Assembly (NCBI RefSeq): GCF_016859125.1
Contig: NZ_CP069338.1
Span: 11,783,501 to 11,847,500 of the forward strand
DNA length: 64,000 nucleotides
Reading direction: 5' to 3'
Origin: Archangium violaceum
GTDB lineage: Bacteria > Myxococcota > Myxococcia > Myxococcales > Myxococcaceae
A program made the translations under genes and the position numbers. Position 1 is the first letter of the stretch; each line of letters starts with the position of its first letter. The notes under the pieces were generated by a model. That model had not been told where the DNA came from and searched no databases. It saw nothing but the letters and a program-made list of their open reading frames with translations. Below, piece after piece: positions 1 to 8,356 of the stretch.

Positions 1-28
1 GGCGCTCCACGCGCACCCGCTCCTTCAC
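1..28 (-). CDS. Possible 5' end of the next minus-strand gene (partial)
   Basis: A GTG on the minus strand at 28-26 overlaps the TGA of the CheW gene in a GTGA arrangement. It opens a frame reading M-K-E-R-V-R-V-E-R up to the window edge. Such 4-base overlaps are common in this window, for example at 5353-5356 and 49280-49283, and indicate translational coupling. Only nine codons are visible, so no product can be named. It would be co-transcribed with the CheW gene. Confidence 0.35.
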
Positions 29-588
29 GCCCCCTCCGGAACGGACAGGATGGCCGAGGCCCTGATCAGCGGACGGATGCCCTCGGGGGTACGGCACAGG
101 CCCGCCATCAACCCCGTCCGATCCCAGGGGTTGGTGTCCTCGCCCGAGAGGGAACCCTCCACCAACACCGGGGACTCGACGAGATCCCTCACCCGGTCCA
201 CCAGCACCGCCACGGTGCGTGCGCCTCCGCAGATGACCAGGTGTGCGTCCAGATCCGGCTCCCGCTGCACCCCGAGCATCGCGGACAGATCCACCACCAC
301 CGCGGGCGTGCCCCGGTAGAGCATGGTGCCCCGCACATGGGGGAGCGCGGCCGGCAGCGGCTCGATGGCCACCAGCCGGACCACCTCCATCACCGCTTCC
401 ACGGGCAACAGGGCAGTGGAGCCGGCCACCTCCACCGTGAGGTAGAGACCGGGCAGCCGCTGATCCACGCCGAGCGTGGCCAGTTCCCGACGTAGCCGGA
501 CGATCTCCTCTTCCAGCAACGCCAGGCGTTTCTGTACTGACGCGCGCTTCGCCTGGGCTTCAGCCGTCATCGAAGGGGAATCGACCAT
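25..588 (-). CDS. CheW-like chemotaxis coupling protein with N-terminal coiled coil
   Basis: This 187-residue cytoplasmic protein probably links chemoreceptors to a CheA-type kinase. Residues about 8-40 are heptad-rich and charged (LALLEEEIVRLRRELATLG) and should form a short coiled coil. Residues about 46-185 look like a CheW domain: LYLTVEVAGS at the first strand, the LPVEAVMEVVRL segment, then HVRGTMLYRGTPAVVVDLSAMLG, which matches the HxRGxxxxRGxxxPVVDL core of CheW proteins. ATG at 588 is preferred. An in-frame ATG at 570 would lose only six residues, and the frame stays open far upstream because of high GC. It diverges from the Ser/Thr kinase at 820. A gene probably starts in its stop codon, so it may be part of a che-like operon running out of the window. 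No kinase or receptor is visible here to name its partner. Confidence 0.8.
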   Translation of the reverse strand: MVDSPSMTAEAQAKRASVQKRLALLEEEIVRLRRELATLGVDQRLPGLYLTVEVAGSTALLPVEAVMEVVRLVAIEPLPAALPHVRGTMLYRGTPAVVVDLSAMLGVQREPDLDAHLVICGGARTVAVLVDRVRDLVESPVLVEGSLSGEDTNPWDRTGLMAGLCRTPEGIRPLIRASAILSVPEGA

Positions 589-3467: not shown

Positions 3468-4421
3468 TTAATCACGGAAAGCGCGAGGAGCCGCTCCACG
3501 CCTGCCTGCCCGCTCACGTCGCCGGCCGAGCGCCAGCAATCCCCACAGCGCCGCTGCGGGGAAGAGGAACCCGGGAGCGGCGCCGCACCCCAGGCCCGGG
3601 CCCGTCGATACGGTCTGGAAGTGGCGGCCGAGGTTGGGAAGCTCGCCGCACTGGGTGGGGGGAAGGCCCCGGGGGTAGGCGTCGCAGAAACCCGCGGCGC
3701 TGCCCGCGTCGATGATGCGCTTGTGGGTCTCCCCCGTATTCGCGGTGGGCTCCATGGTGGAGCCGGACACCTCGGGCACGTGATCCAGCCCCACCACGTG
3801 TCCGAACTCGTGGGTCGCCGTGTTCTGGATGTCCGTGAAGACGCAGTTGGAGGTCTGCTCTCCCTCACATGGCGGCGAGTCGACGGTGGTGAAGGTGATG
3901 CCCTTCCCCTCACGGCTCGCGTTGAACTCGATGTCCGCGTCGAGGATGTAGCCGGTGCGGAAGATGAAGGTGGTGGTGGTCAACCCGATGGTGCCGACGC
4001 CGTGCTCCCAGCACGCGTACTTGTTGCCGCAGGTGTCGTCCTCGATGCACGGATCATCCGGCTCGACGACGTCGTTGCAGTCCACCTCGCGGAAGGTGAA
4101 GACGTTGTAATTGTCCTCGCTGTCCTTCACGTACCCCACCTGGGGATTCTGGATGTCCGGGCCGCGGGTGAAGGTGAAGTCGCTGCAGGTATGGGACACC
4201 GCGCGCCAGGAAGCCACCGCGGCCTCGATGGCGGCGATCTCCGAGTCTCCGGGCGTGCGGCTGTAGCCGGCCGCGTCCAGCCGGTACACGTACTCACGGA
4301 CGGGCCAGACGAGGCAGAAGGGCCGCTCGGGCACCAGGGTGCGATGGTACGTCTGGGCCTCCGCCCGGGGAGTGAAGAGGGCGAGCACCGAGACGGCGAG
4401 CCACGGAAGAGAGCGCCTCAC
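3468..4421 (-). CDS. MYXO-CTERM metzincin-like metalloprotease (paralogue 2)
   Basis: This 317-residue secreted protease has an N-terminal signal peptide (RRSLPWLAVSVLALFTPRAEA). The zinc motif HEFGHVVGLDH matches HExxHxxGxxH of matrixin-type metzincins and is followed by VSGSTMEP, a plausible Met-turn. Conserved cysteines (DDTCGNKYACW; DSPPCEGE) suggest disulfides. The C-terminus has the tripartite MYXO-CTERM layout: a Cys in GLGCGAAPG, a hydrophobic helix (FLFPAAALWGLLAL) and an Arg cluster (GRRRERAGRR). It should be processed by a myxosortase and surface-anchored. The GTG start overlaps the TGA of its upstream paralogue (GTGA), so translation is coupled. I recall the family as the MXAN_2677/MXAN_2678 myxosortase-dependent metalloproteases. 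The natural substrate is unknown. Confidence 0.9.
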   Translation of the reverse strand: MRRSLPWLAVSVLALFTPRAEAQTYHRTLVPERPFCLVWPVREYVYRLDAAGYSRTPGDSEIAAIEAAVASWRAVSHTCSDFTFTRGPDIQNPQVGYVKDSEDNYNVFTFREVDCNDVVEPDDPCIEDDTCGNKYACWEHGVGTIGLTTTTFIFRTGYILDADIEFNASREGKGITFTTVDSPPCEGEQTSNCVFTDIQNTATHEFGHVVGLDHVPEVSGSTMEPTANTGETHKRIIDAGSAAGFCDAYPRGLPPTQCGELPNLGRHFQTVSTGPGLGCGAAPGFLFPAAALWGLLALGRRRERAGRRGAAPRAFRD

Positions 4422-5356
4422 GAGCGGGCGCCTCCCCGACGGCGGCGCCACGCGAGCAGGGCCCAGCCAGCCATCGAGGGCAACCACGCCGCCCCCGCGC
4501 CGGAACTGGAGCAACCCATGGACTGCTTCCCGAGCACCGTCGTGTTCCCACTCGAGTCCAATGTCGGGGTGACGCAGCTCTGGCTGGGCTGGCCTTTCGG
4601 GTACACCTCGCACACGAACTGATGCGAGCCCTCATCGATGGTGCGCTTGGACGTCTCGCCCGAAGGAGCCCTCGGGAACATGACGGAGCGGGGGTCATCG
4701 GGGACGTGGTCCAGGCCGATGAGGTGGCCGATCTCGTGCGTCATGGTGTTCTGCAGGTCCGTGGACACGCAGGTGTTGTCCCTACCGGTGGCGGGCGGGA
4801 TGCACTGCGGGGAGTCCACGGTGGTGAAGACGAAGCCGCTCGCGTTCAGCTGGATGTCCGAGTCGTAGATGATGCCGGACTTCTCGTCGTAGGTGGTGAG
4901 TGTGAGGGCGATGGTGCGAGCGTCGCTGTCCCAACAATCGTAGTCGTTACCGCAGGTGTCGTCGATCCAGCACGCGTCGGAGGCGGGCACCACGTCCGGG
5001 TCCGAGCAACGCGTGGAGCGGAAGAGGACGAGGTTGCGGTTGTTGTCGCCCCTCAACTCGTAGCCCACCTTGCGGTCGTCCACGAGGGGCCCTTCCGAGA
5101 AGCGGAGGTTGCCGCAGGACACGAAGAGCCGCTGCCAGCTCTGGAAGGAGGCGCGGATGGCCTCGAACTCGCGCTGCTTCTGGGCCTCCAGGGCGGTGTC
5201 GGGATTGCCCACGCTGCTGTTGTGCCAGGTGATGGTCGGCACCGTCCAGTAGAGGCACTGGGCGCTCGCATTACCCGCCGCCACGCGGCTGCGGACATAG
5301 GGCGTCGAGCCCTCCTGCCCCAGGGCGAGCGAAACCAACAACGAGGTGAGGATCAC
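4418..5356 (-). CDS. MYXO-CTERM metzincin-like metalloprotease (paralogue 1)
   Basis: This 312-residue protein is a clear tandem paralogue of the next gene. Its signal peptide is short (MILTSLLVSLALGQE). Both share DDTCGNxYxCW, a TVDSPxC segment and the zinc motif, here HEIGHLIGLDH, followed by RSVMFPR as the likely Met-turn. The tail is MYXO-CTERM type: Cys in QSMGCSSSG, a hydrophobic stretch (WLPSMAGWALLAW) and RRRRGGARS. Its ATG overlaps the stop of the upstream secreted-protein gene (ATGA), and its own stop overlaps the GTG of the second protease, giving a fully coupled three-gene unit. The two copies differ in many positions, so they are an old duplication rather than a recent one and may cleave different targets. 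Confidence 0.9.
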   Translation of the reverse strand: MILTSLLVSLALGQEGSTPYVRSRVAAGNASAQCLYWTVPTITWHNSSVGNPDTALEAQKQREFEAIRASFQSWQRLFVSCGNLRFSEGPLVDDRKVGYELRGDNNRNLVLFRSTRCSDPDVVPASDACWIDDTCGNDYDCWDSDARTIALTLTTYDEKSGIIYDSDIQLNASGFVFTTVDSPQCIPPATGRDNTCVSTDLQNTMTHEIGHLIGLDHVPDDPRSVMFPRAPSGETSKRTIDEGSHQFVCEVYPKGQPSQSCVTPTLDSSGNTTVLGKQSMGCSSSGAGAAWLPSMAGWALLAWRRRRGGARS

Positions 5357-5940
5357 GGCCGCTTCTCCTGGGCACGAACGGGAGGCTGCTGCTGGAGCGC
5401 GGTCCGGATGGACGCCTTGAGCTCCGGCAGCGTCATGGCGCGGAGGGAGGAACGGGTGGGCTGCCGCGTTTCTGGATCCAACAGGAGCGAGTCTCCGGTG
5501 GGCTCCGGCACGGCCATGGCGCTCGTCCCGCCCTCCGTGCGCTGCACCTTGTACTTGCCCTGGGCCATGCCGGAGACGCGGAAGGCCTGGGGCCCGCGGC
5601 GCTCCAGGAAGAGCACCACCTCCTCCCCGGGGGAGAAGCTCGCCAGGCCGCTCACCCTCTGACCGATATCACCCACCCGCCCACCGGGCTGGGTGACGAG
5701 CACCGTGCTGCCCGCCTGCCCCTTGAGGGCCTCGGTGACCTGGATTTCCACATCCGTGACGATACGGCGTCCATCTCCGCTCCACCGGCTTTCCACACGG
5801 CGAACCGTGCCATGGATGATGGAATCGGCTGTCTGGGCGAGCTCCGGCAGGTCGGCCCGCAGCATCGACGTGGCGCTCGCGGGCAGGCAGAGCAGGAGAA
5901 CAGCCGGAAGGAGCGCGCGCAGCGCATTGGGAAGATTCAT
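5353..5940 (-). CDS. Small secreted protein of unknown function, first gene of the protease operon
   Basis: The 195-residue product begins with a signal peptide (LPNALRALLPAVLLLCLPASA). The mature part is a compact all-beta-looking domain: SIIHGTVRRVESRWSGDG, then IVTDVEIQVTEALKG, VLVTQPGGRVGDIGQRVSG and EEVVLFLERRG. I recognise this pattern from conserved hypothetical secreted proteins but know no function. ATG at 5940 is chosen because GAGGG lies about 8 bases upstream and the signal peptide starts there; an in-frame codon at 6018 would add an unlikely leader. Its stop overlaps the start of the first protease. Coupling to two exported proteases suggests a partner role such as inhibitor, chaperone or co-anchored subunit, which is inference. 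Confidence 0.8.
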   Translation of the reverse strand: MNLPNALRALLPAVLLLCLPASATSMLRADLPELAQTADSIIHGTVRRVESRWSGDGRRIVTDVEIQVTEALKGQAGSTVLVTQPGGRVGDIGQRVSGLASFSPGEEVVLFLERRGPQAFRVSGMAQGKYKVQRTEGGTSAMAVPEPTGDSLLLDPETRQPTRSSLRAMTLPELKASIRTALQQQPPVRAQEKRP

Positions 5941-8060: not shown

Positions 8061-8131
8061 TGGGGAATCGTCTAACGGCAGGACAGCAGACTCTGACTCT
8101 GCTTATCTAGGTTCGAATCCTAGTTCCCCAG
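8061..8131 (+). tRNA. tRNA-Gln (CTG)
   Basis: The cloverleaf can be drawn by hand. The acceptor TGGGGAA (8061-8067) pairs with TTCCCCA (8124-8130) and G8131 is the discriminator. The anticodon stem-loop is GCAGA-CTCTGAC-TCTGC with anticodon CTG, reading CAG (Gln). The T arm is CTAGG-TTCGAAT-CCTAG. The CCA end is not encoded. Confidence 0.93.
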
Positions 8132-8157
8132 CTCGCTGTACCCGGTCGTAGCAAGCC

Positions 8158-8229
8158 GGCCCTGTCGTCTAGCGGTTAGGACGGTGCCCTCTCACGGCAC
8201 AAACTCGGGTTCGAATCCCGGCAGGGTCA
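8158..8229 (+). tRNA. tRNA-Glu (CTC), copy 1
   Basis: The acceptor GGCCCTG (8158-8164) pairs with CAGGGTC (8222-8228) with one G-T pair, and A8229 is the discriminator. The anticodon loop CTCTCAC in the GTGCC/GGCAC stem gives anticodon CTC, reading GAG (Glu). The T arm has GTTCGAATC. All 72 bases are identical to the copy at 8280-8351. Confidence 0.95.
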
Positions 8230-8244
8230 CTCGTAGCAAAGGCG

Positions 8245-8276
8245 CCCACCTTCCTGGGAAGGTGGGTGTTCTGTTT
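8245..8276 (+). terminator. Hairpin between the two tRNA-Glu genes
   Basis: CCCACCTTCC (8245-8254) and GGAAGGTGGG (8257-8266) form a near-perfect hairpin. It is followed by TGTTCTGTTT, a T-rich tail typical of intrinsic terminators. It could end transcription after the first tRNA-Glu or act as a processing hairpin in a joint precursor. Confidence 0.6.
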
Positions 8277-8279
8277 CAC

Positions 8280-8351
8280 GGCCCTGTCGTCTAGCGGTTA
8301 GGACGGTGCCCTCTCACGGCACAAACTCGGGTTCGAATCCCGGCAGGGTCA
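8280..8351 (+). tRNA. tRNA-Glu (CTC), copy 2
   Basis: This is an exact 72-base duplicate of the copy at 8158-8229, with the same acceptor, anticodon CTC and T arm. The copies start 122 bases apart with an unrelated spacer holding a hairpin. A recent local duplication or gene conversion is likely. Confidence 0.95.
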
Positions 8352-8356
8352 CTGAG

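Follow-up and report, generated by a model that had tools for sequence, protein, structure and literature searches.

Pairs of a metzincin and a protein resembling the tissue inhibitors of metalloproteinases (TIMPs) are already known from bacteria, namely the Mtz-Tim pair of Listeria and the potempins of Tannerella forsythia, as they are described in the parts of the literature available to us. In Listeria, adjacent genes encode the secreted metzincin Mtz and the protein Tim, whose structure is predicted to be TIMP-like (PMC8235301), and because of this precedent we do not claim such pairs as new. The potempins are small exported inhibitors encoded directly upstream of the protease that they block (PMC7296668), and PotA blocks karilysin according to the title of PDB entry 8b2q. 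In the present study, we analysed a window of 64,000 nucleotides from Archangium violaceum (contig NZ_CP069338.1, positions 11,783,501 to 11,847,500 of the forward strand), which contains at 3468-5940 a cassette of three genes for a small exported protein, here called P, and two matrixin-type metzincins, M1 and M2 (M is used below for proteases of this kind in general). Like the potempin genes, the P gene lies directly upstream of a peptidase, with M as the presumed target. P very probably possesses a fold of the NTR/TIMP class and works together with M, and we consider it probable, with moderate confidence, that P inhibits its co-encoded metzincins. As far as sequences indicate, the P family stands apart from the precedents: it is apparently soluble, mostly encoded upstream and spread over several phyla, no Pfam or NCBIfam model covers it, and it is characterized by a fixed mature N-terminus and by natural fusions.

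All three genes lie on the minus strand in the order P, M1, M2, and the claim of the original prediction that three exported products adjoin here (5940-3468) was confirmed. P (5353..5940) starts with ATG and encodes 195 amino acids, M1 (4418..5356) and M2 (3468..4421) both start with GTG and encode 312 and 317 amino acids, respectively, and all three products carry export signals, as judged from their sequences. The two junctions are indeed four-base overlaps, at 5353..5356 between the stop of P and the start of M1 and at 4418..4421 between the stop of M1 and the start of M2, but the first one had been misread as ATGA: both are GTGA. This kind of ending is common in the family. NTGA stops were found in 161 of 209 P genes with M next and in 52 of 60 M genes followed by another M, compared to 57 of 187 M genes that are last in line and 1112 of 2520 other open reading frames (ORFs) of at least 250 amino acids at the same loci, although some places occur in more than one of these partly overlapping loci. 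When a subset poorer in close relatives was counted, the numbers were 101/134 for P versus 37/118 for the last M, and among the 90 loci around P matches 78 of 82 unfused P ORFs end this way. The four-base overlaps exceed chance, and P, M1 and M2 are read here as translationally coupled, a prediction drawn from the gene borders.

The original prediction had described the first gene as an unrecognized secreted domain, and no Pfam or NCBIfam model matched P (P0001) up to an E-value of 1. P as a known named domain was also rejected on the basis of 55 aligned rows (P itself and its relatives), over which no match was consistent: at E ≤ 0.1, the weak Pfam matches of the 55 rows were scattered over DUF4131 in six members (best 0.0027) and Big_10 in one (7.4e-5), and those to NCBIfam over ten families with one member apiece (best 0.0055). 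Residues 1-23 of P (5872..5940, minus strand) are predicted by conservation to be a signal peptide with an AxA-type end, which would make Thr24 the first residue of the mature protein (5356..5871, minus strand). In a set of 200 nonredundant homologues (below 80% identity), the AxA-type site is present in 187 of 197, and the distance from the next residue to the conserved Asp-like position of strand A is exactly 16 residues, without any insertion or deletion. Directly after the site, 125 of 198 homologues have Thr and 40 have Ser (165 together). Gly63 is invariant (200/200) and is followed by Gly64 in 194 of 199. P as a lipoprotein was rejected, as no lipobox was read and the AxA-type site is followed by Thr or Ser instead of Cys.

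A fixed mature N-terminus ahead of the barrel is what would be required if the N-terminus of an inhibitor chelates the zinc, as we infer from the TIMPs and from AprI. The serralysins, against which AprI and Inh are directed, form another branch of the metzincins, and the amine in the zinc-NH2 bond of AprI is that of the N-terminus. AprI/Inh resembles the presumed function of P in being a small periplasmic inhibitor of a secreted metzincin (PMC8235301 as far as available, the bond being taken from the title of a reference therein). For the TIMPs, the basis of this argument is the accessible part of PMC9409782.

The predicted structure of P is in line with this argument. Already before modelling, the sequence pattern of P resembled the TIMP/NTR barrel, and the distance from the presumed mature N-terminus to strand A is that of the TIMPs. 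The AlphaFold2 (AF2) model of mature P is of high confidence (pLDDT 93.7, pTM 0.87) and was calculated from 55 rows, namely the window's P and 54 of 59 relatives (five short rows were left out: one of L143, and L142, L124, L126 and L140). It shows a putative NTR/TIMP-like OB barrel with a C-terminal helix over model residues 1 to approximately 165. The first 21 rows of a Foldseek search against the PDB consisted of agrin NtA, TIMPs and one PCOLCE NTR domain (E-values 3.3e-4 to 2.3e-2), and the PDB title of agrin NtA itself reads 'structurally related to N-TIMP-1'. In the VIA comparison, rank 1 was N-TIMP-3 bound to TACE (3cki_B; Z 10.8, root-mean-square deviation 2.5 Å, 117 aligned residues, model 1..164 on chain 1..121) and rank 2 was TIMP-1 bound to MT1-MMP (Z 10.7). 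The first aligned pair was model residue 1 with TIMP residue 1 in 17 of the 17 TIMP rows among the first 50 VIA matches, if chain numbers 301 and 1001 are taken as TIMP residue 1. Since the start of the model was chosen at Thr24, this pairing shows where such a cleavage would place the N-terminus, not that the site is used. PotA is an OB-fold, too. No potempin appears within the first 50 VIA matches of P, a result that leaves room for kinship; potempins differ from P in being lipoproteins, described for T. forsythia in the part of PMC7296668 available to us, whereas P has no lipobox.

Both proteases possess the intact zinc site HExxHxxGxxH, as had been predicted: HEIGHLIGLDH at residues 207-217 of M1 (4706..4738, minus strand) and HEFGHVVGLDH at residues 204-214 of M2 (3780..3812, minus strand), each followed by a Met-turn-like stretch. 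M1 and M2 are 43% identical, and the common cysteine pattern reported originally extends to all cysteines, 11 of 11 being aligned. Both are members of NCBIfam family NF041905 ('myxosortase-dependent metalloprotease, MXAN_2677/MXAN_2678 family') with 375.3 and 365.2 bits (cut-off 250), and both exceed the cut-off of Pfam Peptidase_M10 (31 and 24.8 bits, cut-off 24); the line describing NF041905 makes no mention of a small partner. Among the sequences of the PDB, M1 is matched best by that of MMP-14, a matrix metalloproteinase (MMP; entry 3ma2, E 0.007). The catalytic fold was judged on the AF2 model of a relative, the fusion protein L091 of Archangium lansinium, in whose alignment M1 and M2 are rows. 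According to this model, the M domain of L091 is an MMP catalytic domain in fold, with karilysin, the protease blocked by PotA, as the top structural match (Z 15.2), followed by MMP-8 (Z 15.1). The position equivalent to the MMP catalytic start is located around residue 18-20 in M1 and 23-25 in M2, right behind the signal peptide as read by eye. Therefore, there is no room for a prodomain in M1 and M2, and a vertebrate-type MMP prodomain with cysteine switch was not found in either of them.

The two proteases were also predicted to be MYXO-CTERM proteins. Tails consisting of a Cys, a hydrophobic helix and an Arg cluster can be read in both, from Cys282 in M1 (4421..4513, minus strand) and from Cys279 in M2 (3471..3587, minus strand), but the cut-offs of the motif models were not reached (M1: TIGR03901 with 13.9 bits, cut-off 20, and TIGR03382 with 10.1 bits, cut-off 15.85; M2: TIGR03382 with 10.7 bits, cut-off 15.85). 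The dependence of M1 and M2 on a myxosortase is predicted from the name of their family and from the gene for the myxosortase MrtX in the genome (NF040593, E 1.7e-135). According to the available part of PMC11980579, the MYXO-CTERM of TraA is cut by MrtX, and lipidation and type II export are steps predicted there. A second NCBIfam match at 3468-5356 (minus strand) is NF041938; the zinc site of this sister family of MYXO-CTERM-anchored metalloproteases is inactivated.

The evidence for a functional connection of P and M comes from their distribution. In 195 Myxococcota genomes, P-like genes (E ≤ 0.001) and NF041905-like genes (E ≤ 1e-10) were detected in 177 genomes each. Both are present in 174 and both are absent in 15 genomes, so that 189 of 195 agree; P alone was found in three (G041, G168, G175) and M alone in another three (G169, G180, G181). 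Several of these assemblies are incomplete, and in G181 a later profile search found a P adjoining M. At the level of individual loci, 90 loci around P matches (L001-L030 being the best matches, the window among them, and L031-L090 chosen by hand from the match list) contain 82 unfused and 9 fused P ORFs, and M is located downstream of 81 of the 82, the exception lying at a contig edge.

To these loci we added a survey of every P match (E ≤ 1e-6), with P alone as query, in 50 Myxococcota genomes, none of them from the family of the window. It yielded 108 P ORFs, distributed over 48 genomes. In 88 cases M follows downstream and on the same strand as P (centre of the domain within 1.35 kb), two ORFs are fused to M, two have M upstream and 16 have no M within the DNA fetched. 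The small protein is consequently not one that occurs mostly away from proteases, an outcome that the original prediction had named as speaking against it, and the proposed module of proteases with a fixed partner is well supported by these 88 downstream and two fused copies out of 108. Mere shared descent of close relatives was rejected as an explanation of the linkage, since the same linkage exists in 50 genomes of other families. The combination of two proteases with one small protein, which had also been put forward, is true for the window but a local variant, as many lineages possess one protease per P.

Outside the Myxococcota, 19 P ORFs were found in 14 genomes that belong to other phyla or to unnamed groups, 16 of these ORFs with M downstream, one with only an HExxH motif upstream and two with neither; in one of these two (L181, the same place as L156), M lies far inside the next ORF. 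Since these genomes were picked for an earlier match to a query of P and M, their main 14 copies are not independent evidence; of the five extra copies, three have M downstream. The survey thus comprises 127 copies (108 + 19), after five duplicates (L190, L299, L300, L301 and the first of L285) had been removed from 132 rows, and both survey and locus counts use stop-to-stop ORFs. A wider scan of contigs used P and M together as query and is therefore biased towards pairs. Among the best 80 of 183 confirmed stretches, P adjoins M in records titled Acidobacteria, Planctomycetota, Latescibacterota, Verrucomicrobiales, Gemmatimonas and Bdellovibrionales; nearly all of these non-Myxococcota records are metagenome-assembled, and the phyla are those of the record titles. 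In one of these 80 loci, P occurs without M. A tblastn search of 50,697 phage records with P0001 gave no match up to E 1, and on plasmids P had none up to E 0.01.

Some single loci deserve mention in their own right. L097, from a record titled Comamonas sp. KCTC 72670, carries a P-M1-M2 cassette of the Myxococcus type and is probably a mislabelled or contaminated assembly. In L224 (2806-5469 and 3381-5384, minus strand), two tandem P-like ORFs precede a metalloprotease, and the longer frame of one of them also scored a metalloprotease match. In L193, L202, L208 and L212, all belonging to the family-level group f11 of distant Myxococcota, P is located upstream of secreted Cys-rich repeat proteins of the CDDGNPCTDD type, which take the place of the metalloprotease.

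Natural fusions of P and M occur in two types. In the first one, signal peptide, P and M form a single chain (L051-L054, L056, L057, L060, L096, L119 and L169). In the second one, M and its tail run on in frame through another hydrophobic segment of signal-like character into a P-like domain that is often shortened (L033, L061, L124, L126, L132, L142 and L147). As read from the ORFs, these are apparent polyproteins, for instance at 5419-7263 of L061 (minus strand) and 7295-8695 of L033, and the two known processing steps would release M and P from them in equal amounts. A FastTree phylogeny of 204 P domains (191 separate, eight P-M and five M-P) requires at least eight changes of the fusion state, a rough count because the tree is a quick one and the ORFs run from stop to stop. 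Repeated fusion of two proteins is classically taken to indicate that they function as a pair.

Of the three roles that had been suggested for the partner, to inhibit, to chaperone or to target the proteases, inhibition is favoured because the predicted fold of P is of the TIMP class and the mature N-terminus of the protein is fixed. There are, however, several observations that weigh against this preference. Agrin NtA and complement C3, C4 and C5 also match P (Z 7.7-10.3 in VIA), and these are not known metzincin inhibitors. Their scores, together with the moderate TM-scores of Foldseek (by target, 0.34-0.59 for the listed TIMP rows), show that the fold is one of the NTR/TIMP class and that the function cannot be read from the fold alone. 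Kinship of P with TIMP or NTR at the sequence level was not found by profile and sequence comparisons: a search for PF00965 in eight genomes up to E 10, covering the candidates of a loose first look, gave one match (E 1.49) away from the P genes, and the P profile retrieved no TIMP from the PDB sequences up to E 10. Cys1-X-Cys3 of the animal TIMPs is absent from P as well, the N-terminal position being kept and the cysteines not. Since P conforms neither to the sequence model PF00965 nor to Cys1-X-Cys3, we do not class it as a TIMP but as a protein that would work like one. Common to both are the barrel, predicted in the case of P, the presumed residue 1 of P on TIMP residue 1, and a matrixin as partner. 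On the other hand, P lacks detectable sequence similarity to the TIMPs, consists of a single barrel with a C-terminal helix, is encoded in an operon with its enzyme or fused to it, and its enzymes have no prodomain, in contrast to the situation of TIMPs and MMPs.

The nearly equal scores of NTR-fold proteins with other functions, such as agrin NtA and complement, would also suit a targeting or scaffold domain of the NTR type that ties proteases and other surface proteins to a ligand of the envelope or matrix, metalloproteases being merely the commonest neighbour. Also against inhibition, the DNA fetched contains no protease for 16 of 108 Myxococcota copies (2 of 19 elsewhere). Two of the 16 are located at contig edges; four have Cys-rich repeat proteins as neighbours and two a GAF-like protein, as judged by eye, and these neighbours would suit the scaffold role as well. 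However, 90 of the 108 copies precede a metalloprotease or are fused to it, no other neighbour reaches a similar rate, and M has an anchor-like tail of its own in Myxococcota, so that such a role of P appears improbable.

A different objection comes from Listeria, in which the metzincin was found to use its TIMP-like partner as a substrate (PMC8235301, in the part available). With this experimental precedent, in which Mtz cleaves the lipoprotein Tim, one could assume that P is likewise a substrate or effector which M cleaves or frees, and that a fragment acts outside. The two systems differ in several aspects, however. According to the same source, Tim is a lipoprotein encoded downstream of the metzincin, its similarity to TIMP is a Phyre2 result, and the pair is phage-linked and belongs to a Gram-positive host. 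P, in contrast, has a site like that of signal peptidase I, with Thr or Ser in 165 of 198 homologues at the +1 position where a lipoprotein would have Cys, and would therefore need no release from the membrane. Moreover, there is no long N-terminal tail ahead of the barrel, and we regard P as quite improbable to be a substrate.

Direct signs of an interface between P and M were sought in two ways, and both results also speak against inhibition. A predicted complex, which the original prediction had proposed as a check, was approached through the natural fusion L091. The AF2 model of the mature protein (pLDDT 87.8) has two good domains, but their relative placement is not confident (pTM 0.60), so that P is not placed on M with confidence. 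Its alignment of 55 rows has only three with both domains; for this alignment (A4), 15 of 34 candidate P rows were used, namely those that MAFFT placed on the P part, and 35 of 86 M stretches plus the window's two, four slightly misplaced M rows (L107, L108, L111, L115) being left out. In a mean-field coupling analysis of 178 pairs, eight of the 100 strongest couplings linked P to M, without forming a coherent interface. Since neither the fusion placement nor the couplings nor the sequence links gave them, we infer binding, inhibition, localisation and processing.

The last point against inhibition is that in 20 of the best 80 of 183 stretches M occurs without a recognized P. The same number argues against the possibility that P is a chaperone for folding or secretion, or an activator, which binds M in the periplasm and replaces the prodomain as a foldase while leaving the active site unblocked. 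The absence of a prodomain ahead of the catalytic domains of M1 and M2, the position of most P genes immediately before M, and the place of P in the P-M fusions, which is that of a prodomain, would all agree with such a function. However, the fold and the fixed mature N-terminus suit an inhibitor that acts through its N-terminus, and it is not obvious why a chaperone should require cleavage at one exact place. A chaperone function seems unlikely to us.

If P is an inhibitor, the following sequence of events can be envisaged. Coupled translation would produce P first and then M, and the coupling, or the fusion, would keep inhibitor and enzyme in step. The cut of signal peptidase would expose Thr or Ser as residue 1 of P, and the free N-terminus together with the invariant Gly-Gly loop could then, in the periplasm, occupy the zinc cleft of M, which has no prodomain. 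M bound to P would be inactive and the cell protected during the modification of the C-terminal Cys, the removal of the tail by the myxosortase and the type II transfer to the surface. At the surface, P might be lost, titrated, diluted, degraded or outcompeted, and M would become active. In the P-M fusions, P would function as a TIMP-like prodomain.

Inhibition by P would mean that environmental bacteria of several phyla possess the enzyme-inhibitor logic of the animal MMPs in the form of a compact operon. It would explain how surface matrixins can be made without a prodomain, and it would supply a large collection of naturally matched enzymes and inhibitors, natural fusions included, from which the specificity of TIMPs could be learned. 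Myxobacteria would gain a regulated surface protease beside those that may serve predation or development. The origin of the TIMPs would become a question that can be tested with sequences; that the matrixin-TIMP pair predates the animals, with the bacterial operon as ancestor of or sister to the animal MMP-TIMP pair, appears rather improbable to us at present. A literature search, with subscription journals mostly outside its coverage, revealed no report on the P family in myxobacteria or on its spread among the matches listed, and no paper naming MXAN_2676-2679.

The cassette is located on a chromosome of 12.68 Mb. Its neighbours, as named by eye, are an ORF resembling haloacid dehalogenases on one side and a divergent gltX-like ORF on the other. 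Downstream of the gltX-like gene, a tRNA-Gln gene and two near-identical tRNA-Glu genes are present at 8061-8352 of the window (plus strand).

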